NCBI GenBank assembly: GCA_025782575.1 | Contig: JALGYY010000009.1 | Coordinates: 225,512 to 289,511, forward strand | DNA length: 64,000 nt | Source: a bacterium | Lineage (GTDB): Bacteria > Orphanbacterota > Orphanbacteria > Orphanbacterales > Orphanbacteraceae | Direction of reading: 5' to 3' | In this document: positions 15,901-40,994 of the stretch, in pieces | Layout of the letters: every line of letters begins with the position of its first letter | How positions within the stretch are numbered: the first letter of the stretch is position 1 | The notes under the pieces: generated by a model | Databases searched by the model: none | What the model saw: only the letters and a program-made list of their open reading frames with translations | Told to the model about the DNA's origin: nothing | Position numbers and translations under genes: made by a program

Positions 15901-17310
15901 GGAGCCGTCCCCCGCCCCTGAAGCGGAATTGAGGCGGGCCGGGGCGCAGAGGGTCGGTTTCAGTCGGCCGTCATCTGTAGGGCCCCGGCTCGTATTGGTG
16001 TAGAGATCACCGGCGCTGCTTCCATTCTCCGTACCGCCGGCACTGACACAGTTCTTGGCGGCCGCAGGCGAACCGACCGAACCGCTGAATCCCGAGTTGC
16101 CGTTCGAGAAGACGAGCAGAAAATCCTTGTGCTCCCAGACGAAACGATCGACCTGCTCGCAGCGGAAATCGTACGCGCCGTTCGTCGCGGCGCCCCACGA
16201 GTTCGACATGATGCGAGGAGCGCCTGCGCTGTTCCCGGCGTAAACCGCCTCGAAGAGATTGGTGAGATCGAGTGGGAGATGCACTTCGTTTGTCGTGCCC
16301 CCGCCGTCAATAAATAGAACGCGGGCTTCCGGAGCGATGCCGTCGGCGCTGCTCGCTCCCATGCCTTCATCGTTACCAGCCGCGGTGCCCACCGTATGCG
16401 TGCCATGCCAGCTTGCCCCGGCATCATCACCAAAGAGAATGGACGATGTGGAATCCGCTTTCCAGTAGCCGGTCAGTTTCCGGTGGTTCGGATAGTCGCC
16501 GAAAGCCGTAATCGGAAATGCTGGATCGTAAAACATGTCATGCGACGGCCGGACGCCGCTATCGAGGAGAGACATGAGAACGCCGTTCCCCCGAAGCCCC
16601 TGATCCCAGAGCGCACGAAGCTCAGTGACGTCGGTCTGCACAACCCATTGGCACTCGTTGTTATGGAAGAGGGCCGGCTCATGAGGCTCGATCCAACTCA
16701 CCTCTTCAAGCGCGGCGATCCCCTGTGTCATTGACCGGCTGATCGATGCGCGGATCAGACCGGGGGCGGTATCGAGGATGACTCCCCCCATCGATTCAAT
16801 CACGCGACCGGGAGATTCAGATTCCGCGCCGGGAAGTAGACGAATGACCGCTTCGAAATGGCCGCCCCACTTTGCCCTTATCTGAAGGGCGGCCGATAGC
16901 TTCGTATCCGGAGTGATACGGGAGACGCCGGTCACGCCGGGTGCACGTGTGAGCTCTGACAATCCTCCCCGGCCTGCGCGGACGAAGTAGGTGTCGGGCG
17001 AGTGATAGGCGAGCGGGACGGCGCCGAGTGCCTCGATCGCGGCACGCCACTCGGGACGAATGGGACCGCGGAACTGCACGAAGCCCTGCTCTGCCGGAGC
17101 CTGATCGCCAGTAGGGATCGCCGTGATCACCACAGTTCCGTTAGAGAGCCGGATTGCTCCGCCACGATCAGGCGGCCGGTCATATCTGGTGCCGGCAAAT
17201 CGAAGAAAACCGTCAGCAAAGGAGTTCCCGGCCATCAGAATTCCCACTGCAAGCAACAGGCAAATCGTCAGACAGGTGCGATGCGAAGACACACGTCCCC
17301 CCGGGGTCAA
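12988..17310 (-). CDS. Secreted subtilisin-family (S8) protease with fibronectin-like and FlgD-like C-terminal domains
   Basis: 1440 residues. Signal peptide to about 33, a propeptide-like region to about 230, then an S8 catalytic domain with Asp250 (LLDSGV), His302 (WHGTHTVGTAAG), oxyanion Asn in SNSWG near 370, and Ser478 (DGTSMSAPS). Downstream are a P-domain-like jelly roll (ALVWNDYPSTPSA, LVNDLDLRV), a fibronectin III-like segment (VIEWLTDKPSDCTIHYG), a ThuA/GATase-like stretch (LLVIGNETFPETDRYL) and a final FlgD-like Ig domain with YQNAPNPFNPVTTIRFDLP ending KMVLIR. It probably acts outside the cell on proteins or peptides; the last domain resembles sorting or anchoring modules of FCB-type bacteria. 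Acs lies 169 bases upstream on the same strand. Confidence 0.9.
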   Translation of the reverse strand: MTPGGRVSSHRTCLTICLLLAVGILMAGNSFADGFLRFAGTRYDRPPDRGGAIRLSNGTVVITAIPTGDQAPAEQGFVQFRGPIRPEWRAAIEALGAVPLAYHSPDTYFVRAGRGGLSELTRAPGVTGVSRITPDTKLSAALQIRAKWGGHFEAVIRLLPGAESESPGRVIESMGGVILDTAPGLIRASISRSMTQGIAALEEVSWIEPHEPALFHNNECQWVVQTDVTELRALWDQGLRGNGVLMSLLDSGVRPSHDMFYDPAFPITAFGDYPNHRKLTGYWKADSTSSILFGDDAGASWHGTHTVGTAAGNDEGMGASSADGIAPEARVLFIDGGGTTNEVHLPLDLTNLFEAVYAGNSAGAPRIMSNSWGAATNGAYDFRCEQVDRFVWEHKDFLLVFSNGNSGFSGSVGSPAAAKNCVSAGGTENGSSAGDLYTNTSRGPTDDGRLKPTLCAPARLNSASGAGDGSYQILDGTSMSAPSLAGSAALVRQYFLEGRYPGGSFGGGPSLAPSAALVKAVLLAAGQDDVTNAEIPSNDIGWGRLNLDGALYFPGDPSRLAVADVSPGLLTGETFIYELTVSSGSTPLELALVWNDYPSTPSASTHLVNDLDLRVTGNGTTYYGNIFSGGFSVSGGFRDSINVEEVVLIDSPAPGLWTVEISGTSIPFGPQPFALVVTGALDDGVASLALDRQSYGGNDSIRIQVEDGNNVVSPVVLVSSSSEPAPESILLTGSGGIWSGTLPTTTSPPVAGDGMISVSHGDTLAASYLDSDPAGQTSATASILLDGPVLWPPNVIEAGDQSLVIEWLTDKPSDCTIHYGLDPAALLDSVTSPDLVLLHRMPLTGLLPDTTYYLSVSSADLQGNRTTDNGGAEPFRAGTAERANVLLVIGNETFPETDRYLNAFDRFGWNGTVITGAIPPVGNRTTGMRSYPVVIWQAGWEQYPPVSETARDSIGKYIDGGGRLLFVSHDAAWALGDPGSGYWSAASESWLTDRLKVQFSTDPSFWNIAFGMNGDPISGLYSISGILYTPFRSGGSGDEVTLAPFSGASSTVWKDTFGPTVAIKWADPGPAGSPDSAVWGGMPSMGVTSSFEWAQLNASSEDDLTRGTVLDKTLKWLAGRDHPDVTLTTFTGGELVQTSPVSIGWIDTTDTDAGYFVGNRKIEWSGDGGSSWNLVADGAGPGPYSWNLAGVPNGTTARIRVTVEDDGDPPLKGASSSGANFTLALAGNDWRGPRMIAGTASVSPNPAVLPGNAIIRATLSDSLRGGGTIESAEWSLGPAPGGSGTSMTGTWGATTLEVIDTIDVSLLDLPADTIWIRGRDSGGVWGEATGLRVDVSGDYTSVSESGVPLRFRLYQNAPNPFNPVTTIRFDLPAESRTSLSIYSLSGRIVKQLIDSRLGAGSHTATWRGLNESGRPVSSGVYFSRLLAGDQHAVNKMVLIR

Positions 17311-17479
17311 TCAGTCCAGAATGTCAGGATCGCGGCAAGAATCTCGATGCTATCAGTCTGAATTACGATAGGTCAACAGATGGGGAACTGTTTTTGATCG
17401 ATTTGCACCGATTCTTTCATACCGCACGATCTACGGCATAGTATCGGCGCTCATGTTCCGGACTTGAGCGGGTGAGGGA

Positions 17480-29630: not shown

Positions 29631-31532
29631 TCAGTCGCGGTGCAGCTGTACGGGGTAAGGGTTCCTCCGGTTTTTTCGAGCCCGCGTGATCGCCTCCTGG
29701 ATGATCGGCACCCCCGTTTTAGCTGGATCGCCATAACTCCGGTAGTTCAAATATTCCTCATAGGCGGTTATGGCGAGGTCGAGGCTGCCTCTGCTCTCGA
29801 GAGCCCGGCCGAGTGCAGCAAACGCATCGGGGAGTACCGGGGGAAAGTCGAGAAGGGACTCTCCCCGCTCCACGACTGTTTCCAGTTCCTGAATTGCGCG
29901 GGCCGCCTGATCAGCCCCCAGATAGGCGAGCCCCAGATAGTACCGATTCCTGACGGTATCGCTGATTCTGACAGCCCGCCGCAGGGGGGGAACAGCTTCC
30001 CATCCCGACTGGATCCGAAGGAAGTAGAGACCTTCAACAAATGGAGCTCGCGCCGGGTGATGGCCGATTGCTTCTAGTTCAAGCCTTTTGGCGGAAACTG
30101 CGCCTCGATCCTCGAATCGGGCGGCTACGATGCCTTCCAGAAACGGTATGAGGCCGGGGTCCGCGCTGGCCAGAAACTGGGATTCCTCATGGAATCGCAG
30201 GTCTGCCGCTTCATAAGCCGCCTCCCTCGGTTCGTCGGCTTCCAGCAGGGCCCAGACGAGGCGGGCTGTCAGATCGAGGACCGCCTCCTGGTTTCCGAGC
30301 CGGTGTGCCTCCTCCCGGCCCCGTTTCAGCTCGATCACCGCTTCGCCATAAAATCCCCTGGCCAGGTGAAGAGCTGCTCTCGCGGCAGCGTACTGATAGT
30401 AGGCGGTCCATCCGTGCGCGAGCCCGGATGGCGGGTGGGAGAGAAGAAGCGCGGCGTCTTCCGGAAATCCCTCACTGTAATCGATCGACGCGAGGCCGAT
30501 CCGGGCGAGAGCATCACCCCCCGAAAGCTCGTCAGCACGGTGGAACTCCTCGCGGGCCATATCGAGATAGCCGGCCCGGAGAGCAAAATCGCCCAACAGA
30601 CGGTGAGGCCTCGGATCGAGTGATCGAAGCCGGATGGCCGCCCGAAGCTGCTCAGCCGCCCCACGGAAATCGCCCTCTTCGGCTCTCATTCTGGCTACCT
30701 GAACGTGGGTGTCGAAGCGGAGGGGAAATTGTGACTCGAGACGGTCGATCGCCTCGGTCCTGGCCCGCGAGTTTCCCGCGATTGCAAGAATCCGCGCTTG
30801 ATGGGCGGCTCTTTCGAGTGGCGCGAGCCGGAGCGAATCCGTTTCAGCGAGCAGCTTCCGGCCGCGTGCCGGGTACTCTCCGTCGGCCAGACGATACCCG
30901 AGCTCGGCCTTCGCCCCCTCGTGGCTCCCTCTGTTCCACGCCTCTTCCAGATCCCCTAGAGAACCGGTGGCCACACCTCTGGCGAAAAGCTCCTCCGCCT
31001 GGAGATCGTAGAGAGGAAACGACCGCTCTTCACCAGCAGTCCACCCGAACCGGACGATCGCCGAATCCGCCCACGCCTGAGCCGTCTTTCCGAGTGAGTC
31101 GAGAGGGACAGGGGGGAGCAGGGCGACCCAGATCGAGTCGAACGGGGTGGCCGACCCATAGAGGTTGACGAAGACACCCTCTCGCCCGGTCTCGAGAGCC
31201 GCGACAAGAATGTAATCGAGCTGTGAGGATCGCCCTTCGCTTCGGAGGAAGCTGCCTGAACCCCCCTCCACCGCACCCTCGCCATGGCTCACGATGACGT
31301 GAGCGAGGTTGGCTGATTTCCGATCGGGAAGAGTGACCGGCTCGAAAGGGGTTCTCCTGCAATCGAGGGCCCTCTCGAAAAGCATCCTCACTGCAGCCGG
31401 GTACGGAAAGTCCCGGGGAGGTGCGGTAAAAATCGAAACCCTTGGCGGCCGTTCGTGATTGCCCCCCCACGCCAGTGAGGCGGGGACCACCAGGCAGGAG
31501 GCGACGAGAACGTAGCAAAGAAACCTGTTCAT
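29631..31532 (-). CDS. Secreted or periplasmic TPR-repeat protein
   Basis: 633 residues from ATG 31532, where a signal peptide begins (MNRFLCYVLVASCLVVPASLAWG); a reading from 31694 would add 54 residues with no signal character. After a 150-residue N-terminal domain (VSIFTAPPRDFPYPAAV, HVIVSHGEGAVEGG) the rest is a chain of TPR-like helix pairs, for example FRGAAEQLRAAIRLRSLDPRPHRLLG, GYLDMAREEFHRADELSGG and LDLAITAYEEYLNY near the end. These are scaffolding repeats; no enzymatic motif is seen. It diverges from the SPFH-permease operon across 164 bases and may be co-regulated with it, but no functional link is visible. Confidence 0.75.
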   Translation of the reverse strand: MNRFLCYVLVASCLVVPASLAWGGNHERPPRVSIFTAPPRDFPYPAAVRMLFERALDCRRTPFEPVTLPDRKSANLAHVIVSHGEGAVEGGSGSFLRSEGRSSQLDYILVAALETGREGVFVNLYGSATPFDSIWVALLPPVPLDSLGKTAQAWADSAIVRFGWTAGEERSFPLYDLQAEELFARGVATGSLGDLEEAWNRGSHEGAKAELGYRLADGEYPARGRKLLAETDSLRLAPLERAAHQARILAIAGNSRARTEAIDRLESQFPLRFDTHVQVARMRAEEGDFRGAAEQLRAAIRLRSLDPRPHRLLGDFALRAGYLDMAREEFHRADELSGGDALARIGLASIDYSEGFPEDAALLLSHPPSGLAHGWTAYYQYAAARAALHLARGFYGEAVIELKRGREEAHRLGNQEAVLDLTARLVWALLEADEPREAAYEAADLRFHEESQFLASADPGLIPFLEGIVAARFEDRGAVSAKRLELEAIGHHPARAPFVEGLYFLRIQSGWEAVPPLRRAVRISDTVRNRYYLGLAYLGADQAARAIQELETVVERGESLLDFPPVLPDAFAALGRALESRGSLDLAITAYEEYLNYRSYGDPAKTGVPIIQEAITRARKNRRNPYPVQLHRD

Positions 31533-31557
31533 CAGATTCTGGTCCCCATTCCCCCTC

Positions 31558-31586
31558 TTGACAGTCACCCGAGGCATTTCTACTTT
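31558..31586 (+). promoter_or_regulatory. Candidate promoter of the permease-SPFH operon
   Basis: A perfect TTGACA (31558-31563) is followed after 17 bases by TACTTT (31581-31586), only a 3/6 match to the -10. It would give a leader of about 100 bases. No metal-regulator palindrome is obvious to me in the gap. Confidence 0.35.
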
Positions 31587-31696
31587 ATTAGAAGCTGACT
31601 CCGATGATAACCCCCTCCGGGGATTCGGAAAGGATCTTGTTGGACCGATACTCAGGATGAGGGGGAAACGATGAGATTCACCAAAAGGATCCATAC

Positions 31697-33868
31697 ATGA
31701 GCGCCCTTATTGGCTTTCTTGGCGAATTCGCCCAGGAAACTCTCTCCATTCTCTACGAGAGCGGGCTGTTCATTCTATTCGGGTTCTTCCTGGCCGGCCT
31801 GTTGCAGGTCTATCTGAGAACAGATCGTCTGATCCCGTTTCTGGGAGGTCGGAACTTGAAGGCGGTGATCAATGCCGCCCTTCTCGGTGCACCGCTTCCT
31901 CTCTGTTCCTGCGGCGTTGTACCGACCGCTGTGGCGCTTCGACAGAAAGGGGCGAGCCGGGAAGCGACGATGTCGTTTCTAATTTCCACGCCCGAGACAG
32001 GTGTGGATTCCATCTCAATCACCTACGGACTACTCGGACCTTTCTTTGCCATTGTACGGCCGATCGTCGCCATCCTGACCGCTGTGGTAGCCGGCTTCCT
32101 GCACATGCTCTTCGGAGAAGATGTGAGTGCCTCGAAGGATGTCAGGAATGCCGAGAGCGCCGAGGATCAGTGTGCCGACTGCGAGATAGAACCGGGCGTC
32201 GCTCATCACGAAGCGCCGGTGCCGGCGGTGGTTCCTCATGCGACCCATGGGGACCGGCTTCGAAGCGCGATGGAGCATGGATTCATTCGACTTTTTGATG
32301 AACTGGCGTTCTGGTTTCTCTTCGGCATTCTCTTGACCGGTTTTCTAACGGCCATACTTCCCGATCAGTTCTTCTCCGATACGCTCGGCACCGGGCTTCT
32401 TTCCATGATCGTGGTGATCCTGCTCGGCGTTCCGCTCTACATGTGCGCATCGAGCTCGACTCCTGTGGCAGTCGCATTTCTCATCAAGGGCTTGAGCCCG
32501 GGTGCGGCGCTCGTCTTTCTACTTACCGGGCCGGCCACCAACGCCGCGACTCTCTCCGTAGTGGGGAAGGCGTTCGGCGGACGATTCCTGAAGATCTATC
32601 TCGGCTCCATCGTCGGTGTTTCGCTGGCGGCTGGACTGTTTGTCAATGCAGTCTATGAGTGGAGTCCGAGCATGGCCGGAACTGTCGAAGAGGGGACGAT
32701 GGGATTCCTTTTTCGAACACTCAAGGGGATCGGTCTTCTCCTCTTTCTCTTTCTCTCCTGGAAGAGTCTGCGGCGCACCGGTCTGAGGCCCGGCTTTCGA
32801 GAGCTTCGCGAAAATCTCGCCGCCGCTACCGCCCCGATCAAGCGGATTCGTCCTTCCCAGTTGTTGACAACCATGGCCGGTCGTCTGACTCTTGGCGCAC
32901 TGATCGTTTCCTATCTTCTCTCCGGATTCTACTCCGTCGCCCCTGGAGAGGTGGGAATAGAGCGCCACTTCGGGCGTGTGACCAGGACGGCCATCAATCC
33001 CGGCCTTCACTGGTGTTATCCCTGGCCTGTCGGAAAGGAAACGACCTGCTCGACCGAAGGCTTCATCAAACTGGAAATCGGATTTCGTGGCGGCGATCCG
33101 GTAGTCAGTCCCCTAGATTACTACAGACCGATTCCAAGCGAAGAACAAGGGAAGATTGATCGCATTCCGGAGGAGTCCCTCTTCCTGACGGGGGATGAAA
33201 ATCTAGTCGATGTACTTGCATCGGCGCACTACAGGGTGAATGATCCGGTACGATTCATCTTCGGGCTGGAGAATGGGGATGATGCCGTCCGTTCCGCACT
33301 CCTCTGGTCAATGGTCGACGAGTTCGTCCACCGGCCGCTGGATCTGATCTTTACGACGGATCGAATCGCGATAGAAGAGAGCGTGCGGAAAACAGCAAAC
33401 GGGCTTCTGGAGCGCACGGGCACAGGCCTTACGGTCGAGGAGTTCCGGCTTCAAAGCGTACACAGCCCGATGGAAGTGCACTACGATTTTCGCGACGTCG
33501 CCTCGTCTATCGAAGACAGGTCCCGCAAGATTTACGAAGCAAAACTTTACGGAGAGGAAGTGGTTCACAAGGCTCGCGGTGATTCGGCAAGCGTAGTGGC
33601 CGGTGCCGAAGGAGACCGGGAGACGAGACTCGCAGTCGCAAGCGGAGAGGCCGGACGCTTCCGGCTTCTGGAAATGGCGGCGAGGATCGAGCGGTCCGGC
33701 ACAAAGCTTCGTCTCTATCTGGAAACCATGGAGCGAACCCTTCCACGTGTACGTAAACTCGTCCGGCCTGATCCCGGAGCGGTTGATCAATTCGAAATCT
33801 GGTTCCAGTCCGGGGATACCCCGGTGATTCCCGAACTGCTCGGCAACAAAGAGGGAGATCTCCGATGA
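31697..33868 (+). CDS. DUF318/ArsP-type permease fused to an HflK-like SPFH domain
   Basis: 723 residues in two clear parts. Residues 1-360 are a permease of the PF03773 type (ArsP, SO_0444 Cu/Zn exporters) with about eight membrane helices, the hallmark PLCSCGVVPTA (Cys70, Cys72), STPETGVDSI, and the second repeat LYMCASSSTP (Cys250) with LTGPATNAATL. The central loop 141-190 is rich in Cys, His and acids (QCADCEIEPG, HH, HATH), a plausible metal site. From about 397 there is another membrane helix and then an HflK-like SPFH domain (GFYSVAPGEVG, HFGRV, NPGLHWCYPWPV, LTGDENLVDVL). I know these as separate proteins; the fusion is unusual. First gene of a four-gene coupled operon; AAAGGA precedes the ATG. 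Confidence 0.88.
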   Translation: MSALIGFLGEFAQETLSILYESGLFILFGFFLAGLLQVYLRTDRLIPFLGGRNLKAVINAALLGAPLPLCSCGVVPTAVALRQKGASREATMSFLISTPETGVDSISITYGLLGPFFAIVRPIVAILTAVVAGFLHMLFGEDVSASKDVRNAESAEDQCADCEIEPGVAHHEAPVPAVVPHATHGDRLRSAMEHGFIRLFDELAFWFLFGILLTGFLTAILPDQFFSDTLGTGLLSMIVVILLGVPLYMCASSSTPVAVAFLIKGLSPGAALVFLLTGPATNAATLSVVGKAFGGRFLKIYLGSIVGVSLAAGLFVNAVYEWSPSMAGTVEEGTMGFLFRTLKGIGLLLFLFLSWKSLRRTGLRPGFRELRENLAAATAPIKRIRPSQLLTTMAGRLTLGALIVSYLLSGFYSVAPGEVGIERHFGRVTRTAINPGLHWCYPWPVGKETTCSTEGFIKLEIGFRGGDPVVSPLDYYRPIPSEEQGKIDRIPEESLFLTGDENLVDVLASAHYRVNDPVRFIFGLENGDDAVRSALLWSMVDEFVHRPLDLIFTTDRIAIEESVRKTANGLLERTGTGLTVEEFRLQSVHSPMEVHYDFRDVASSIEDRSRKIYEAKLYGEEVVHKARGDSASVVAGAEGDRETRLAVASGEAGRFRLLEMAARIERSGTKLRLYLETMERTLPRVRKLVRPDPGAVDQFEIWFQSGDTPVIPELLGNKEGDLR

Positions 33869-34758
33869 GTCGGATGAAACGGTGGATCGTACCGGGGCTC
33901 GCCATTCTCGCGGTGCTCTATGTACTCTCCTGCTTTTATGTGGTGGACGTAACGGAGTATGCCGTGGTGACGCGATTCGGAAACCCTGTCGCGATCCATA
34001 CCGAACCCGGGCTCCTGTTCGACCTGCTGAAGCCGATCGAATCGATCACGCGAATCGACGCGCGCCTCCTGATACTCGATCTCGAACCGGCCGAATTTCT
34101 GACGGAGGATAAGAAGAATGTAATCGCGAGCGGTTACGCCATGTGGCGAGTGGAGGATCCGCTCATGTATCTTCAGCGGGTTTACAGCCGGATGGGCGCC
34201 GAGTCGAGAATCAGCGACATACTCTCATCGGAAACGGGAGCCGCGCTCGGTACGGTACCCTTTTCGGCGCTGGTTTCAGCGGACACCAGCGAAATTCGAC
34301 TGGCTGAAGTCGTTCGGTCGATCCGGGACCGGAGCGCCGAGAGAATTCTACGGGACTACGGTGTCCGGCTCGAAGACTTCCGGCTGAAGAGATTCACGTT
34401 TCCCAATCAGAACAAAGAATCGGTCTTTCAGCGGATGCGTGCCGAACGACAGAGAATCGCCAAGCGATATCGATCGGAAGGGGAAGAGGAAGCGACCAAG
34501 ATCCGGGCGGAAGCGGACAGGGAGAGTGTCGAGATTCTCGCGAAGGCAACAAGGCGATCGGAGGAGCTTCGGGGTGAAGGGGAAGCGGAAGCGACCCGGA
34601 TTTACGCTGAGGCCATACGACAGGACCCCGATTTCTATCGGTTCATGCGCACCCTGGAATCCTATGAAAAGATTGTGGACGGCAAGATGACAGTTGTGAT
34701 TCCGAGCGATTCCGATCTCATGAGACTCCTGATGCATGGACCGGGAGGTGCGCGGTGA
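33865..34758 (+). CDS. HflC-like SPFH/band-7 membrane protein
   Basis: 297 residues: an N-terminal membrane anchor (about 8-26), then an SPFH domain with the HflC opening FYVVDVTEYAVVTRFGNPV, EPGLLFDLLKPIESI, DLEPAEFLTEDKKNV and ASGYAMWRVEDPL. A long charged helix follows (about 175-265, Glu/Arg/Ala-rich: EGEEEATKIRAEADRE), the coiled coil through which HflK and HflC assemble into cages around FtsH. FtsH itself is not in the window. Start ATGA overlaps the fusion gene's stop and the gene's own TGA overlaps the next GTG. I leave the symbol blank because the operon context differs from the canonical hflKC locus. Confidence 0.88.
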   Translation: MSRMKRWIVPGLAILAVLYVLSCFYVVDVTEYAVVTRFGNPVAIHTEPGLLFDLLKPIESITRIDARLLILDLEPAEFLTEDKKNVIASGYAMWRVEDPLMYLQRVYSRMGAESRISDILSSETGAALGTVPFSALVSADTSEIRLAEVVRSIRDRSAERILRDYGVRLEDFRLKRFTFPNQNKESVFQRMRAERQRIAKRYRSEGEEEATKIRAEADRESVEILAKATRRSEELRGEGEAEATRIYAEAIRQDPDFYRFMRTLESYEKIVDGKMTVVIPSDSDLMRLLMHGPGGAR

Positions 34759-35675
34759 TCAGCAGACCCGCAGAACTTCCCTGGGTGCGGATCGGCTTGA
34801 TCGCCGCCCTTCTGATCTGGCTCGGTTCGGGGATCTACACGGTAGCTCGGGATGAACTTGGTGTGGTCCGGCTGTTTGGGAAACCGTGGCAGACGAGAGT
34901 GCCGCCTGGCATGCACTTCGCCCCTCCCTGGCCGTTTGCCAGGACAGAAGTCGTTCGCACTACTTCCGCTTATCAGATGAGCGTGGGGTTCAAGATAGCC
35001 GACTCAGTGAAAGGAAAGCCTCCCACACCGGCTGAGACTGAGTTTCTAACCGGCGACACCAATATCATTACACTCGAGATGATTCTGCAATACGTTATCG
35101 ACAATCCGTCACGGCTCCTCTTCGGCATTGAGGACCCGCACTTTCTCGTGAGACGGGCGGCCGAAACGACGGCTACGGCGATTCTCGCCCACACTCCGGT
35201 GGATGTGGCCCTTACAACCGGGCGCGCGCCATTTCTCGAGGCCGTGCGTGCCGATACACAGGAGCTGCTTCGCGATTATGGCGCCGGAATCCTTCTCGTT
35301 TCGGCTACTCTTCGGAAGATCGAGCCGCCGGCCGAGGTGATCGACGCTTTCCAGGACGTCCAGAACGCCAAGTCCGACCGTGAACGAAGCATCAACGAAG
35401 CGATTGGATACGCGAATGAGACTCTGCCGCGATCCAGAGGAAAAGGGGAGGCCCGCGTATCCGCAGCAAGAGCAGCAAAGATCAGCCGGATCGAAATTGC
35501 CCGGGGAGACGCGAACCGGATTTCTAATATGATCACAGAGTATCATGCGGCACCGACCGGCGTGAAGAGTCGTATGTATCTTGAAGTCGCGGAAGAAGTG
35601 CTGGGTATGGCGACGATCTACGTGATCGACGGTGGTGACGGGCGGAGGCCGATGGGCCTCAAGCTGATCGAGTAA
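34755..35675 (+). CDS. HflK-like SPFH/band-7 membrane protein
   Basis: 306 residues from GTG 34755, preceded by GGGAGGT. N-terminal anchor (about 10-28), then GIYTVARDELGVVRLFGK, PPGMHFAPPWPFA and LTGDTNIITLEMILQYVI, a second HflK-type pattern distinct from the SPFH domain fused to the permease. The late region (about 205-270) is a charged helix. With the fusion protein and the HflC-like protein this gives three SPFH subunits in one operon, enough for an HflK/HflC-type heteromer carrying a transporter. Confidence 0.87.
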   Translation: MISRPAELPWVRIGLIAALLIWLGSGIYTVARDELGVVRLFGKPWQTRVPPGMHFAPPWPFARTEVVRTTSAYQMSVGFKIADSVKGKPPTPAETEFLTGDTNIITLEMILQYVIDNPSRLLFGIEDPHFLVRRAAETTATAILAHTPVDVALTTGRAPFLEAVRADTQELLRDYGAGILLVSATLRKIEPPAEVIDAFQDVQNAKSDRERSINEAIGYANETLPRSRGKGEARVSAARAAKISRIEIARGDANRISNMITEYHAAPTGVKSRMYLEVAEEVLGMATIYVIDGGDGRRPMGLKLIE

Positions 35676-35677
35676 TC

Positions 35678-36412
35678 GTGCAGACGACTTTGGGAATATC
35701 GATTTATCTGGGGCTGATCACGGGCATTTCTCTACTCGGCGGGTGGGCGCCGCTCATCAGGCCCTGGTCGAGGGAGAAGCTGACGCTACTCGTTTCGGCC
35801 GGTGCCGGCGTGCTGCTCGGAGCCTGTTTCATCCACATGCTGCCCCATATTGTCGAGGGGATCGGAGACGCCGCAGGGGTGACGATACTCGCCGGGTTTC
35901 TGGCGATTTTCGTACTCGAAAAGTTTTTTCTGGTCGATCCCTGTGAGGAGATTGACTGCCACATTCATAAATTCGGGCTTGCCGCGTTTTTAGGGATTTC
36001 GTTTCACAGTCTGATCGACGGCATTGCCGTTGGTACGAGCCTCATTCTCCCGAACCTCGCTGCTCCCGTATTCTTCGCCATTGCCGTGCATAAAATCCCC
36101 GCGGCATTCTCTCTCTGCTCGATCCTGCTTCTCGCCGGCTATTCCCGCGGACGGGCGGCTCTCATGATTCTGGGTTTCTCGCTCACCACTCCGATCGGGG
36201 CGATTCTCGCTTTTCTGTTTCTCCGCGGACTCGCCCCGCAATATCTTTCGATGGCGATCGGCATCAGCGCCGGCTCCTTTCTCGCGATCGCTACATCCGA
36301 TCTCCTCCCCCAGCTCCACAAAGAAGGGGTGAATCGCTTTGCCACACTCCTCTTTCTGCTTGTCGGCGTGGGTGTGATGATGATCGCGGGGATGGTCTTT
36401 CAGACCCACTGA
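35678..36412 (+). CDS. ZIP family metal transporter
   Basis: 244 residues with about eight membrane helices. ZIP signatures: FIHMLPHIVEG in an early helix, then HKFGLAAFLGISFHSLIDGIAVG (helix IV, given partly: SFHSLIDGIAVG) and AIAVHKIPAAFSL (helix V), whose His, Asp and Glu-type residues line the binuclear metal path. The second motif lacks the common Glu after HK-xP (HKIPAA rather than HKxPEG), a possible change in selectivity. The cytoplasmic loop has DPCEEIDCHIH, a small metal-binding cluster. GTG start two bases after the preceding stop; last gene of the SPFH operon. Zn2+ or Fe2+ import is the usual activity. Confidence 0.87.
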   Translation: MQTTLGISIYLGLITGISLLGGWAPLIRPWSREKLTLLVSAGAGVLLGACFIHMLPHIVEGIGDAAGVTILAGFLAIFVLEKFFLVDPCEEIDCHIHKFGLAAFLGISFHSLIDGIAVGTSLILPNLAAPVFFAIAVHKIPAAFSLCSILLLAGYSRGRAALMILGFSLTTPIGAILAFLFLRGLAPQYLSMAIGISAGSFLAIATSDLLPQLHKEGVNRFATLLFLLVGVGVMMIAGMVFQTH

Positions 36413-36453: not shown

Positions 36454-37473
36454 TCAATCGAGAGGGCGAATCCGGGGCTGGGAAAGAAAATAGAAAAGCG
36501 ATTCGATCAAGTTTTCGATTTCCGCTTTGGGGTTGTGCGGATTGAACCAGTGGAACGGATTGAAGAGAACTTTCGGGTGAAGCATTTTCAGTCCCCGACG
36601 GCCGATCTCCACCAGCAGGGATCGCGTTCCGAAAACCTCGTATAGATAATCTGTCTCCGTACCCCGTGCCAGAAAGAACGGAAGAAACCGGCCAAGCTGC
36701 TTGGCTTTGTAACCGTAATTCTGTTGCCGGTCGATCATCTCCCGGCAAAGGTTCTTATACCACTCATCTTCGCGGGGCTTTTTCTTGGTACCACCATATG
36801 GATAGAACAGCCAGCCACCAAACGAGTGAAGCGAAAGGGCGTAGTCGAATCGCGTTTCAAGCAGAAATTCGCGGTAGGCCGACGTTTCCGGTTCGCTGAA
36901 CGGACGATACCCGGGATGCCAGATACTCGGCATGATCCGGTGCAGAAAATACTTGCGCGAAAAGAACGCGCTGAAATTGCGGTTGAGATCGACGCCGTTT
37001 CTGTTCAGCCTGGCAAAGTGCCTGCGCCCTTCAGCCAGGTCCTTCTCGACACGGCGATAACCGTCAGGGTTCAAGACGGGGAAGAAGTAGACCTCCCGGT
37101 TCCAGAGGTCACGGTTCTGGCGCATGGCATTGGTGAACCGTTCCAGAAGAGTGACATTCGCCTCTGCGGCGATGAACTCCTGGGCGTGGATGACCGACGA
37201 GACGAGAAATCGGGGGGGAGGGCCGGTCTTACCACCGGTCCCGGTAACCACACGAAAACCCCAGATCGGTTCGCCCTCTCCGCTTGTCCCGATCGAGAAT
37301 GCGGAGACATCCCGGGGGAACCGCTTCACGATCCGGTCGAGCCGGGTCAGAATTTCGCGGTAGGTGTGGTAGTCGCCGTGAACGGACCTGTCGATCGATG
37401 TCGCGTACTTCTCGTCCTTCAGGACCTTATCTAAATGGCCGCGCCAGCTCGGTTTTGTGGATCGAATTGCCAT
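36454..37473 (-). CDS. M14-family zinc carboxypeptidase
   Basis: 339 residues from ATG 37473, with GGAGGG just upstream (a TTG four codons earlier is less likely). M14 features are HAQEF (zinc His and Glu), NPDGYRRVEKD, LNRNGVDLNRNF with the substrate Arg, LSHS-like ALSLHSFGGW with the third zinc His, and the catalytic Glu in LLVEIGRRG. No signal peptide is evident, so it may act in the cytoplasm or be exported by another route. It would remove C-terminal residues from peptides or cleave amide-linked cell-wall peptides. It diverges from a small secreted protein gene. Confidence 0.87.
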   Translation of the reverse strand: MAIRSTKPSWRGHLDKVLKDEKYATSIDRSVHGDYHTYREILTRLDRIVKRFPRDVSAFSIGTSGEGEPIWGFRVVTGTGGKTGPPPRFLVSSVIHAQEFIAAEANVTLLERFTNAMRQNRDLWNREVYFFPVLNPDGYRRVEKDLAEGRRHFARLNRNGVDLNRNFSAFFSRKYFLHRIMPSIWHPGYRPFSEPETSAYREFLLETRFDYALSLHSFGGWLFYPYGGTKKKPREDEWYKNLCREMIDRQQNYGYKAKQLGRFLPFFLARGTETDYLYEVFGTRSLLVEIGRRGLKMLHPKVLFNPFHWFNPHNPKAEIENLIESLFYFLSQPRIRPLD

Positions 37474-37655
37474 ATTTCCCTCCAATGGATGGTAAGCGAG
37501 AGTCGGTGGGGTGTAAAGGGCGCCGGTTGCTTAGTATGGGATGAACTTTCTCCCATCTGCCCGGTTCAATAGAATAGTCTGTCCGAAAGATCGAAGCGGC
37601 ATGAGAACGGCTGGCCTGCTCCTGATCAGGGCGGCTGCTGAAGAAGGAGTTCCTG

Positions 37656-38220: not shown

Positions 38221-39468
38221 TCAGCACGCCCCGCCACATCCGCAGGATCCGTCCCCGGACTGCTTGTCTGACGGGTGATTTCCGAGCGGGTCACCTGAAA
38301 TGGGTGGTGCCCCCTGGTTCGACATGACCTCTTGCTTCCCATTGGAGTCAGCGCCTCCCATGCGGCCCACCTGCCGGCGAACTTTGAGCTTCATCCATTC
38401 CATTGCTACCCGGGGGAGCATGCTCGGTGTAAAGAGGACTGAGTTGGTAAGAAAGTTCTCGAACGTGCAGTAGCATTTCGTGTCACGGATTTCGCAGCGA
38501 ACCTTTTCCGTTTTCTCCGAGAACCAGATCTTTCGGAAATCATAATCCACATCCCGGAGATTGCCGAGCGGCTCTTCCAGAATTTCGCAAGGATAGACAT
38601 CTCCCCCGGCGTAGATCACGCCTGAAAGATTGGCTGCGTAGCAGGGGAGCTGGTACTCGTTGGTGCGCACGGTCTCACTGATCACATCCTGACGGATATT
38701 TTTCATGGCGTTAATGACATCGGCGCCCGGATAGAAACGATAACCGCTGTTAGTGTCCGTCTCGGTGTCCTCCCGCAGTTCCGCTACCCACTCGAGATAT
38801 TTGCCGCTTTCTACGTCGAGCGCATGGGCGGCACGTGCTCCTTTGCGGGCGATCAGGTTGTTGACGCACTTGACGCCGTAATCGTCCCGCAGAGTGCGAT
38901 AGGTATCGAGGACCGTATCCTGATTGAAGCCGGACATTGTAGTCGCGATATTGGCATTGAAGCTCGGGTATTCCTTTTCCAGTTTCTGGAGTTCCCGAAA
39001 AGTCCAGATGCACTGTTCAAACAGGCCGGGTATGGCCCGCAGGCGATCATGGTCTTTGCCGATCGCATCGATCGAAACGTCGATCGCGAAATCGACACCC
39101 GGATTCTGGTCGAGCATCTTTCTTACTTGCGCAATCACTTTGGTGGTCAGTGAGCCGTTGGTCGGTATGCCGATATTCTTCACGTTGTTGTTCTTGCAGA
39201 AAATGTGGACGATCTCGGCGATGTCGTCCCGCAGAAACGGTTCGCCCCCTGTGGGGAGCAGGAAGAGGATATCTCCCATGCTGCGGGAGGTCTTCTCGTA
39301 CTCGTCAATTGTCATCTCGGTGGTGGAGGGGTGGACCCAGCCGAGTAGACAGTGCCCGCAGTGGGCATTACAGACATCAGTAATGAAAAGGATGATGTAG
39401 TGCGGATCGACTTTCCGCTTCGAAAATATGCGGGGTGCGTATTTGGCGTAGTCAAGAAACCCGCTCAT
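38221..39468 (-). CDS. Radical SAM protein with auxiliary-cluster cysteines and Cys-Gly tail
   Basis: 415 residues. Cluster motif CNAHCGHC at 33-40, then LPTGGEPFLRDD, GIPTNGS, DVSIDAIGKDHDRLR and, toward the end, LPCYAANLSGVI, GDVYPCEILEEPLGNL and KCYCTFENF, the SPASM-like cysteines. The last eight residues are SCGCGGAC, an exposed Cys-rich tail after a Ser/Gly/Asp linker. The substrate is unknown; such tails could bind an extra metal or cluster, or be a target of modification. Its ATG overlaps the stop of the upstream B12-type radical-SAM gene, so the two enzymes are made together and likely act in one pathway. Confidence 0.82.
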   Translation of the reverse strand: MSGFLDYAKYAPRIFSKRKVDPHYIILFITDVCNAHCGHCLLGWVHPSTTEMTIDEYEKTSRSMGDILFLLPTGGEPFLRDDIAEIVHIFCKNNNVKNIGIPTNGSLTTKVIAQVRKMLDQNPGVDFAIDVSIDAIGKDHDRLRAIPGLFEQCIWTFRELQKLEKEYPSFNANIATTMSGFNQDTVLDTYRTLRDDYGVKCVNNLIARKGARAAHALDVESGKYLEWVAELREDTETDTNSGYRFYPGADVINAMKNIRQDVISETVRTNEYQLPCYAANLSGVIYAGGDVYPCEILEEPLGNLRDVDYDFRKIWFSEKTEKVRCEIRDTKCYCTFENFLTNSVLFTPSMLPRVAMEWMKLKVRRQVGRMGGADSNGKQEVMSNQGAPPISGDPLGNHPSDKQSGDGSCGCGGAC

Positions 39469-40994
39469 TCGTTTTTCCCGCCCGGGTTGCTCTCAGATTC
39501 CGTTCGGGCGGCAGATTCATCATGTTCGATGTTTGCCGGTGCCCTGTGTGATCGTTTCCGTTTTCTTGCGTTTCCGCCCATATAATCGACGAAGCTCTTT
39601 ACACCGTGCATCTTGCGCTTGATGTCACCGACCCCTCGAATGGCGGATGCCATACGGACGACCTGTTTCGGCCTCAGGTAGAACTCGCGGAGTCCCGTAT
39701 CGATCAGCTCGTCGATTCGCTCTTTCGGAAGTTGCGGGTAGTCGAGCACAGTCACCTGCTCATGATTCTCGTCGAGGTACTCATCCCAGTCCTTCGGGAC
39801 AAGATAGCCTTCTCTCTCGGCCCAGTCATAGATCTCCGTTCCCGGATAGGCGGCCACTCCCGATATCTGGATCGTATCGAGCGGCAGGCTTTTGGCGAAA
39901 TCGATCGTTGCTCTCGCCGTCTCTTCCGTCTCTCCCGGCGCACCGATCATGAAACATCCGTGGACAGTGAAATCGAGATCGGCGGCGTTCTCCGTGAATT
40001 CTTTCGCCCGGCGGAGGTTCATCCCCTTCTTGACGTTGTCGAGCGCCATCTGCGTGCCGAATTCATAGCCCACCATGAGCATGCGGCAGCCGGCCCTCTT
40101 CATGAGTTGCAGCAGATCCCGCTTGACGTCGGAACGAGCGTTCACGGACCAGCGGATTTTGTTGTCCAGCCCACGCTTCAAAATCTCCCGGCAGACTCCC
40201 TCCACATGTTCCCGATCGGCCGTAAAAGTGTCCGTTTCGATCATCACTTCGCGAAGCGCGGGGAAGAGAGAGAGGTCGTACTCCATCTCATCCACCACCA
40301 GTTCCGGATCGCGATAGCGGTTTTCATGGCCATACATGAGCTGAGGATCGCGGCAATATGTGCATCGGGCGAAACAGCCGCGGCCGGAAAGAAGAGTGAT
40401 AAACGGGTGGAGTTTGCCGCCGTCCCGGTACCATGCCGTATCGATGAAATCCCATGCGGGAAACGGAAGTTCGTTCACGTCGATAAAAGGCCGGGGACCT
40501 GTTCGAACGGGCTGGCCGAAATCGTCCATGTAAAAGAGGCCTGGCGTGTCGGCCGGGTTATTACCCAGGAAGAGATCGCGAATCGTGTGGTCATACTCGC
40601 CGATCGCAATATAATCGAGCGAACCTTCGGACCTGCGAAAGGTGTCTTCAGGGACAGCAGTTACATGCTGCCCCACAAGAATTGTTTTGGAGCCGGCGAT
40701 CTCTTTGGCGATCCGGCAGTAGGCGAGATCGTTCGCAATCGCAGGGGTGGAAGCATGCATGACGACCCACTCGGGCTTTTCATGTCTGAGAAGCGACTCC
40801 ACGTCCCCCTGTGACCAGTTCTGGGCGGCGGCGTCAACGAAGCGAACATCGATTCCGGCCTGGCGCTGTACCCCCGTGGCCACGCAGATGTAGTCGGGAT
40901 GGCGCTGTACCCTTCCACGGGATCGTGCATCCCAGCGGGCGGACCGGACGAAGTCGTCCACATAAGGCGGGTTGAGGATGAGAACCTGCGCCAC
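39465..40994 (-). CDS. B12-binding-domain radical SAM protein
   Basis: 509 residues. Residues 1-170 form a cobalamin-binding-type Rossmann domain (MAQVLILNPPYVDDFVRSAR, PEWVVMHASTPAIANDL, TILVGQHVTAVPEDTF, DYIAIGEYDHTIRDL). The radical-SAM motif CFARCTYC is at 207-214, followed by MIETDTFTADREHVEG, IRWSVNARSD and VGYEFGTQMALDNVKKGM. Class B radical-SAM enzymes of this layout methylate unactivated carbons or rearrange rings. The C-terminal 50 residues are basic and look disordered. It overlaps the downstream SPASM radical-SAM gene by 4 bases. The pathway is unknown. Confidence 0.83.
   Translation of the reverse strand: MAQVLILNPPYVDDFVRSARWDARSRGRVQRHPDYICVATGVQRQAGIDVRFVDAAAQNWSQGDVESLLRHEKPEWVVMHASTPAIANDLAYCRIAKEIAGSKTILVGQHVTAVPEDTFRRSEGSLDYIAIGEYDHTIRDLFLGNNPADTPGLFYMDDFGQPVRTGPRPFIDVNELPFPAWDFIDTAWYRDGGKLHPFITLLSGRGCFARCTYCRDPQLMYGHENRYRDPELVVDEMEYDLSLFPALREVMIETDTFTADREHVEGVCREILKRGLDNKIRWSVNARSDVKRDLLQLMKRAGCRMLMVGYEFGTQMALDNVKKGMNLRRAKEFTENAADLDFTVHGCFMIGAPGETEETARATIDFAKSLPLDTIQISGVAAYPGTEIYDWAEREGYLVPKDWDEYLDENHEQVTVLDYPQLPKERIDELIDTGLREFYLRPKQVVRMASAIRGVGDIKRKMHGVKSFVDYMGGNARKRKRSHRAPANIEHDESAARTESESNPGGKNE

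Follow-up and report, generated by a model that had tools for sequence, protein, structure and literature searches.

A conserved operon joining a metal permease to an SPFH scaffold

We describe here a four-gene operon at positions 31697-36412 (plus strand) of a 64,000-nucleotide window of DNA from a bacterium of the family Orphanbacteraceae (GenBank assembly GCA_025782575.1, contig JALGYY010000009.1). Its first gene encodes a metal permease and an SPFH domain in one chain, and genes for two further SPFH proteins and a ZIP transporter follow. The fusion is real and old. At the level of sequence, the three-SPFH operon and its conservation, the swapping of the fused transporter and an enrichment of zinc importers nearby are likewise apparent. 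It is somewhat probable that the operon specifies a three-subunit SPFH platform for zinc transport, active chiefly when zinc is low, in which one transporter is part of the scaffold itself and a separate importer stands alongside.

The fusion gene (31697-33868, +, ATG start) encodes 723 amino acids (aa) that comprise an SO_0444-type Cu/Zn permease, a transmembrane helix and an HflK-like SPFH domain, the last having a long C-terminal helix. The permease domain (residues 9-317; 31721-32647, +) matches PF03773 in Pfam with 143.5 bits (cut-off 32.3). It also exceeds the NCBIfam equivalog for SO_0444 Cu/Zn efflux, NF033936, with 362.4 bits (cut-off 300), a threshold that the fusions of loci L092, L046, L067 and L126 clear as well. 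A preliminary description of this DNA, made from the letters and reading frames, had called the permease ArsP-type. This label did not hold: the protein passes the Cu/Zn equivalog and no arsenical family, and identity as an arsenical exporter (ArsP) was ruled out because the SO_0444 model fits far better. The CSCG motif (residues 70-73), the MCASSS motif and the Cys/His-rich loop that had been pointed out are all present in the permease half, and CSCG and MCAS are invariant across 8 aligned fusions. The loop (residues 137-186; 32105-32254, +) is acidic, separates the two permease halves and is His-rich in most relatives.

Following the permease, a basic linker that is probably cytoplasmic (residues 354-392; 32756-32872, +; K+R about 9, D+E 2) leads into a transmembrane helix at approximately residues 393-411 (32873-32929, +) and the SPFH/Band_7 domain (residues 413-615; 32933-33541, +), which matches PF01145 with 35.1 bits (cut-off 23.6). 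Since the basic linker precedes the last membrane helix, the SPFH domain is predicted by the positive-inside rule to lie in the periplasm, as in HflK/HflC. This half resembles HflK chains whose structures have been solved (E about 5e-24) and stays below the cut-off of the HflK equivalog TIGR01933 (140.1 vs 159.4), so it is HflK-like only. An AlphaFold2 model built from the alignment of 8 sequences was weak (mean predicted local distance difference test score, pLDDT, 43.8). Read for secondary structure only, it displays similar helical halves on either side of the Cys/His loop, a helix at residues 393-408 and an SPFH region whose C-terminal helix is long.

The gene in position 2 (33865-34758, +, ATG, 297 aa) encodes an HflC-like protein that passes TIGR01932 (190.6 vs a cut-off of 134.4), while the HflK-like product of position 3 (34755-35675, +, GTG, 306 aa) lies barely above the TIGR01933 cut-off (161.6 vs 159.4); both match PF01145. 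The last gene (35678-36412, +, GTG, 244 aa) encodes a ZIP transporter with a score of 121.1 against PF02535 (cut-off 35.1), which stays below the ZupT equivalog (55 vs 252). Compared with BbZIP, it carries HSLID for HNLPEG in transmembrane helix 4 and HKIPAA for QDVPEG in transmembrane helix 5; the His of helix 4 is retained and the other ligands are replaced. The first three genes overlap by 4 nucleotides (nt) each, and 2 nt separate the third from the fourth. Thus the open reading frame (ORF) coordinates and the family matches bear out the gene arrangement, the single-chain fusion and the separate HflC-like, HflK-like and ZIP proteins as they had been proposed.

Occurrence of the fusion

The host phylum was represented by seven genomes, all of one family; in the collection records, the relatives of the host appear as Candidatus Eisenbacteria metagenome-assembled genomes (MAGs), one of them labelled Gemmatimonadetes. 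The fusion is present in five of the seven, including that of the window, with four uninterrupted frames and one broken by a contig end. In this last genome (G004), the fusion runs off the contig, and its C-terminal rest, together with HflC, HflK and ZIP genes, is found at the edge of another contig. HflC- and HflK-like genes come next in all five genomes and a ZIP gene in four; no ZIP was found within the 20-kb locus searched in the fifth (G003).

The fusion recurs outside this family. A scan of GTDB species genomes recovered it at full length from one Candidatus Binatia MAG, from two gammaproteobacterial MAGs and from one Arenicellales genome. Searches within groups of genomes then yielded another Binatia copy (41% identity to the window fusion). 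They also brought in two further genomes from the set centred on the Binatia genome, three from a set centred on an Acidobacteriota (Thermoanaerobaculia) genome and a single genome belonging to the Halomonas order. The tally is five host-family genomes, three of the Binatia group, three of the Acidobacteriota group and four gammaproteobacteria. An assembly or frameshift artefact is ruled out by the intact frames in three other family genomes and in unrelated phyla. A flag of four TGA codons in L017 fell within a match extending upstream of the gene, and the ORF itself is clean. Among the viral contigs searched for a phage-borne system, no relative was found.

The fused form is a minority. The Binatia-centred group held 4 full-length fusions vs 22 unfused permeases (E <= 1e-76), and fusions made up 3 of the 10 matches in the Acidobacteriota group and none of 22 in a set of 340 gammaproteobacteria; the four gammaproteobacterial fusions came via other routes. 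Because the sets built around G008 and G011 share most of their genomes, their counts are not independent. Four unfused SO_0444-type matches (G746, G889, G795, G696) each contain a single in-frame TGA, in agreement with the selenocysteine-containing members listed in PMC13188914.

Genes next to fused and unfused permeases

We compared 15 fused loci that reach past the fusion with 16 loci of unfused permeases, using identical queries within 10 kb. HflC- and HflK-like genes follow the fusion in 15 of 15 fused loci and in none of the 16 unfused ones, and fusion, HflC and HflK genes mostly overlap one another. ZIP, ZnuA or ZnuB was found at 9 of 15 fused loci and 0 of 16 unfused loci; in this comparison the importer queries came from fused loci, some loci are mutually related, six controls are from Halomonas and some control contigs are short. 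These counts agree with the earlier expectation that SPFH and transporter genes co-occur in relatives.

The importer takes several forms. In the Binatia locus L092, the order is fusion, HflC, HflK, ZnuA, ZnuC, ZnuB, with the znu genes (PF01297, PF00005, PF00950) overlapping the end of the SPFH operon, where the window instead has its ZIP gene. ZnuC- and ZnuB-like genes, named by sequence and tblastn only, directly follow HflK in L211. A znuABC set adjoins the operon in L047 and in L067, the latter also with a Fur-family gene, and in L046, ZnuA and two COG0523-type GTPases are encoded upstream. In the gammaproteobacterial L126, the operon is followed by genes for a periplasmic binding protein, a protein of 162 aa and a ZIP, as well as by RND-type efflux genes.

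Some further neighbours were seen. A Peripla_BP_6-type binding protein adjoins the operon in three gammaproteobacterial loci (L047 11333-13140, L067 14989-16782 and L126 11185-12917; confirmed by Pfam only in L126), each of which also has a membrane protein of 158-162 aa without a Pfam match beside the operon. In L198 (13020-16759), the fusion, HflC and HflK genes are followed by genes for an ABC ATPase, a MacB/FtsX-type permease and a DUF3299 protein. This downstream set resembles the Zur-controlled PA4064-PA4066 of Pseudomonas aeruginosa, in which PA4066 is presumably the DUF3299 protein.

Exchange of the fused transporter

The permease is not the only transporter found in this position. On a conjugative plasmid of Aquibium oceanicum (L071, NZ_CP018172.1), the first SPFH gene encodes a CDF-SPFH fusion, followed by HflC and HflK and, further on, a heavy-metal P-type ATPase. 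Its location on such a plasmid means that the module can move between bacteria, and since genes for a P-type ATPase, PCu(A)C and SCO lie near, this copy may touch copper too. CDF-SPFH fusions with HflC and HflK partners were also found in three gammaproteobacterial genomes (L124, L125 and L127, that of L125 named from the alignment). The CDF match in these fusions stops after the membrane region.

A third type occurs in loci of the genus Pseudomonas. They comprise SPFH1, HflC, a third SPFH gene, a 150-aa protein and a P-type ATPase, the HflC and the ATPase both beginning with a His-rich stretch; the N-terminal membrane domain of SPFH1 is long and matches no Pfam family. We take the genus to be Pseudomonas from the housekeeping HflC sequences. 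The order in L182 (SPFH1, HflC, SPFH3, 150-aa protein, P-type ATPase) is like that of the window, with ZIP replacing the importer. It also corresponds to the published sequence of genes in P. aeruginosa: PA2439, PA2438, PA2437, PA2436 and hmtA/PA2435. Some searches for P. aeruginosa-like loci gave two-gene HflK/HflC pairs and not the module. A different HflK/HflC pair, in the Pseudomonas-genus genome G688 (L179, 7012-10150, minus strand), has genes for an Nramp-like transporter and a TerC-like protein, both named by sequence only, directly after it, and so represents a further neighbourhood of SPFH and metal-transporter genes.

Judged by their domain matches, the fused transporters are swappable among a PF03773 permease, a CDF protein and an unclassified membrane domain. 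These natural swaps reveal the SPFH part as the constant element.

Phylogeny of the SPFH proteins

A tree was calculated from 74 SPFH sequences, covering the permease, CDF and Pseudomonas module types and housekeeping proteins. The position-2 HflC-like proteins of all three types form one group of 17 (support 83/86), and 12 housekeeping HflC proteins, including the host's own, fall outside it. The host genome carries a housekeeping HflK/HflC pair in addition to the module, and the position-2 protein of the window scores 265 bits against the Aquibium plasmid protein vs 160 bits against the housekeeping paralogue in its own genome. In position 1, the permease-type proteins and two CDF-type sequences form one group (support 92/92). 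The remaining CDF and Pseudomonas position-1 proteins are placed elsewhere and position 3 is split; these placements are unsure because of long branches.

Possible zinc-dependent regulation

Upstream regions were searched with the consensus TGTTATANTATAACA, which we take to be the proteobacterial Zur box. The znu promoter of L047 contains a perfect match. The fusion gene of the same locus is preceded, 68 bp upstream, by a box with two mismatches; 0.04 such matches are expected in the locus, and 5 of 1000 shuffles of the upstream region match equally well. L050 has a Zur-like box too, so that two gammaproteobacterial fusions are preceded by such sequences. In the Pseudomonas-type loci L182, L183 and L184, we found Zur-like sites with three mismatches, which are equalled in 1-3 of 1000 shuffles.

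Regulatory data have been published for P. aeruginosa. Zur binds the PA2439 promoter in a zinc-dependent manner (PMC8531726), PA2437-PA2439 are 9-14-fold higher when znuA is mutated (PMC4542158), and zinc depletion raises the levels of HflC and HflK (PMC11761036). Zinc, and mostly its scarcity, is thus indicated as the context of the module by ZnuABC in one Binatia operon, by Zur and its boxes in gammaproteobacteria and by the binding of Zur to the PA2439 promoter.

Sequences flanking the operon in the window

The probable promoter region of the operon (31533-31696, +) is common to a divergent gene for a TPR-repeat protein (29631-31694, minus strand), which stands head to head with the operon. 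The limits given for this region follow from the start of the TPR gene, which looks signal-peptide-like. Similarly long divergent ORFs occur at L034, L035 and L036. Directly past the ZIP gene and convergent with it is a zinc carboxypeptidase gene (Peptidase_M14; 36454-37485, minus strand), and a protein resembling its product is encoded in L034 at 16272-17333. Farther downstream, at 38221-40994 (minus strand), lies a pair of adjoining radical-SAM-like proteins, the first with a Cys-rich tail (CGCGGAC).

A proposed platform for zinc transport and its alternatives

We suggest that the SPFH half of the fusion and the HflC-like and HflK-like proteins assemble into one hetero-oligomeric ring or dome in the periplasm. 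Because the first subunit has a permease in the same chain, each assembly would carry several permease copies at its rim. A separate zinc importer, ZIP here and ZnuABC, an HmtA-type P-type ATPase or others elsewhere, would lie within or beside the assembly. In this way the assembly could concentrate and stabilise the transporters and confine the exchange of zinc between periplasm and cytoplasm, mainly under zinc scarcity. The assembly, its periplasmic side, the metal and direction of the permease and a P. aeruginosa-type regulation in this phylum are what we infer. For the direction, confinement of zinc exchange by the SPFH wall, a reversed direction or a balancing efflux would each fit. The preliminary description had proposed a scaffolded metal-homeostasis complex in which an exporter is paired with an importer. 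The conserved fusion, the constant HflC/HflK pair and the metal-homeostasis context hold; the simple exporter-importer pairing needs revision, and the ZIP, present as stated, is only one of several importers in that place.

Several points weigh against a zinc-scarcity platform. CDF transporters are known as exporters, which is awkward with control by zinc scarcity. The same holds for SO_0444 (PMC3219624). In P. aeruginosa, deletion of the three SPFH genes gave only mild phenotypes in the reported assays (PMC13086221), and the Pseudomonas loci were equated with PA2439-PA2435 by genus and gene order. No ZIP or Znu neighbour was found within 10 kb in six of the 15 fused loci (L035, L050, L197, L198, L212 and L213). 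The window operon and the host-family loci lack a convincing Zur-like box when searched with the proteobacterial consensus, so zinc control in the host is deduced from relatives. Positions 1 and 3 give no clean groups spanning all module types in the tree, and the structural model of the fusion is too weak for showing any assembly.

The strongest alternative, although an unlikely one, is a detoxification platform: the permease would export excess Zn or Cu into an SPFH-walled periplasmic compartment, from which RND pumps or others clear it, with the importer merely co-regulated for balance. The RND-type efflux genes of L126, the exporter nature of the CDF relatives and the efflux equivalog passed by the permease all agree with this, as do the Zn/Cu sensitivity of SO_0444 mutants (PMC3219624) and the induction of an SO_0444 relative by Cd/Cu (PMC10092412). 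However, importers are the immediate neighbours in the majority of those loci that showed a metal gene, and the Zur boxes of L047 and L050 together with Zur control of the PA2439 locus (PMC8531726) argue for expression at low zinc.

A role in protein quality control seems distinctly improbable. Here the SPFH proteins would recruit or exclude the protease FtsH and thereby control how much zinc transporter the membrane contains, the fused permease serving as tether or bait. HflK and HflC modulate FtsH in E. coli, and the module proteins match the HflK/HflC models and solved HflK chains. However, no ftsH gene was noted beside the module, and the host already has its housekeeping HflK/HflC pair.

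It is very unlikely that the fused permease has turned from transport to zinc sensing, as a receptor whose metal occupancy alters the SPFH assembly. The retention of a transporter domain in one chain with an oligomerising domain and the use of three different N-terminal membrane domains would suit a receptor, but the permease motifs are intact across the fusions, as expected of active transport. Hardly credible is a loose gene neighbourhood with no joint function, which the six fused loci without ZIP/Znu and the variable genes around the core might suggest, since fusion, HflC and HflK are retained, mostly as overlapping genes, in 15 of 15 loci from several phyla.

Relation to known systems

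The closest known locus is P. aeruginosa PA2439-PA2434 (the hmtA locus; PaFlo5-PaFlo7), which likewise has three SPFH genes followed by a zinc/copper importer. The Pseudomonas-genus loci share its gene order, and their position-2 protein falls in the HflC group of the module. It differs from the window in the membrane domain of its first protein, which has no Pfam match and is not PF03773, and in its importer, a P-type ATPase rather than a ZIP. Its genes are already known as Zur-controlled (PMC8531726) and as flotillin-like proteins with mild phenotypes (PMC13086221), and the papers found interpret them as modulators of FtsH or as flotillin-like, rather than as a single machine for transport.

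The HflK-HflC-FtsH complex shares with the module the SPFH type, the HflK and HflC gene pair and the single N-terminal membrane helix. In contrast, the module has three SPFH chains, one of them bearing a transporter, and its HflC is set apart from the host's housekeeping HflC in the tree. SO_0444, which is needed for Zn/Cu tolerance (PMC3219624), belongs to the family in which the entire permease half scores above the curated NF033936 cut-off, but ordinary members stop after the permease and have no SPFH neighbours in the 16 loci compared. The CDF-SPFH fusions resemble CdfX-type CDF transporters, which have no cytoplasmic domain (PMC11580412), in that their CDF match does not extend past the membrane region; they differ in having SPFH where the cytoplasmic domain would sit. 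The PacL1-CtpC platform of Mycobacterium tuberculosis (PMC9374683) embodies the same idea, a scaffold by which metal transporters are clustered in the membrane; unlike in the module, PacL1 is not reported as SPFH, the transporter is a separate P-ATPase and flotillin is not required. In the open-access literature we found no account of transporter-SPFH fusions or of the module as a system, in line with the preliminary description, which knew of no such system. The parts are known families; to our knowledge, their joining and wide conservation appear new.

The zinc platform may extend to a general bacterial class of periplasmic SPFH domes whose wall subunits are zinc transporters (PF03773 permease, CDF or an unclassified membrane domain). 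Each dome would surround a patch of membrane that holds a partner importer, and zinc would pass through a walled-off compartment and not the open periplasm; we regard this wider proposal as rather doubtful. SPFH proteins occur in all domains of life, and the clients they scaffold are mostly unclear. Here the client is encoded in the gene itself, as a transporter covalently attached to its scaffold. If the proposed platform is true, it would explain the presence of three 'HflK/HflC' genes in the Zur-controlled zinc locus of P. aeruginosa, and the module offers direct, genetically simple access to the role of SPFH assemblies in transport.

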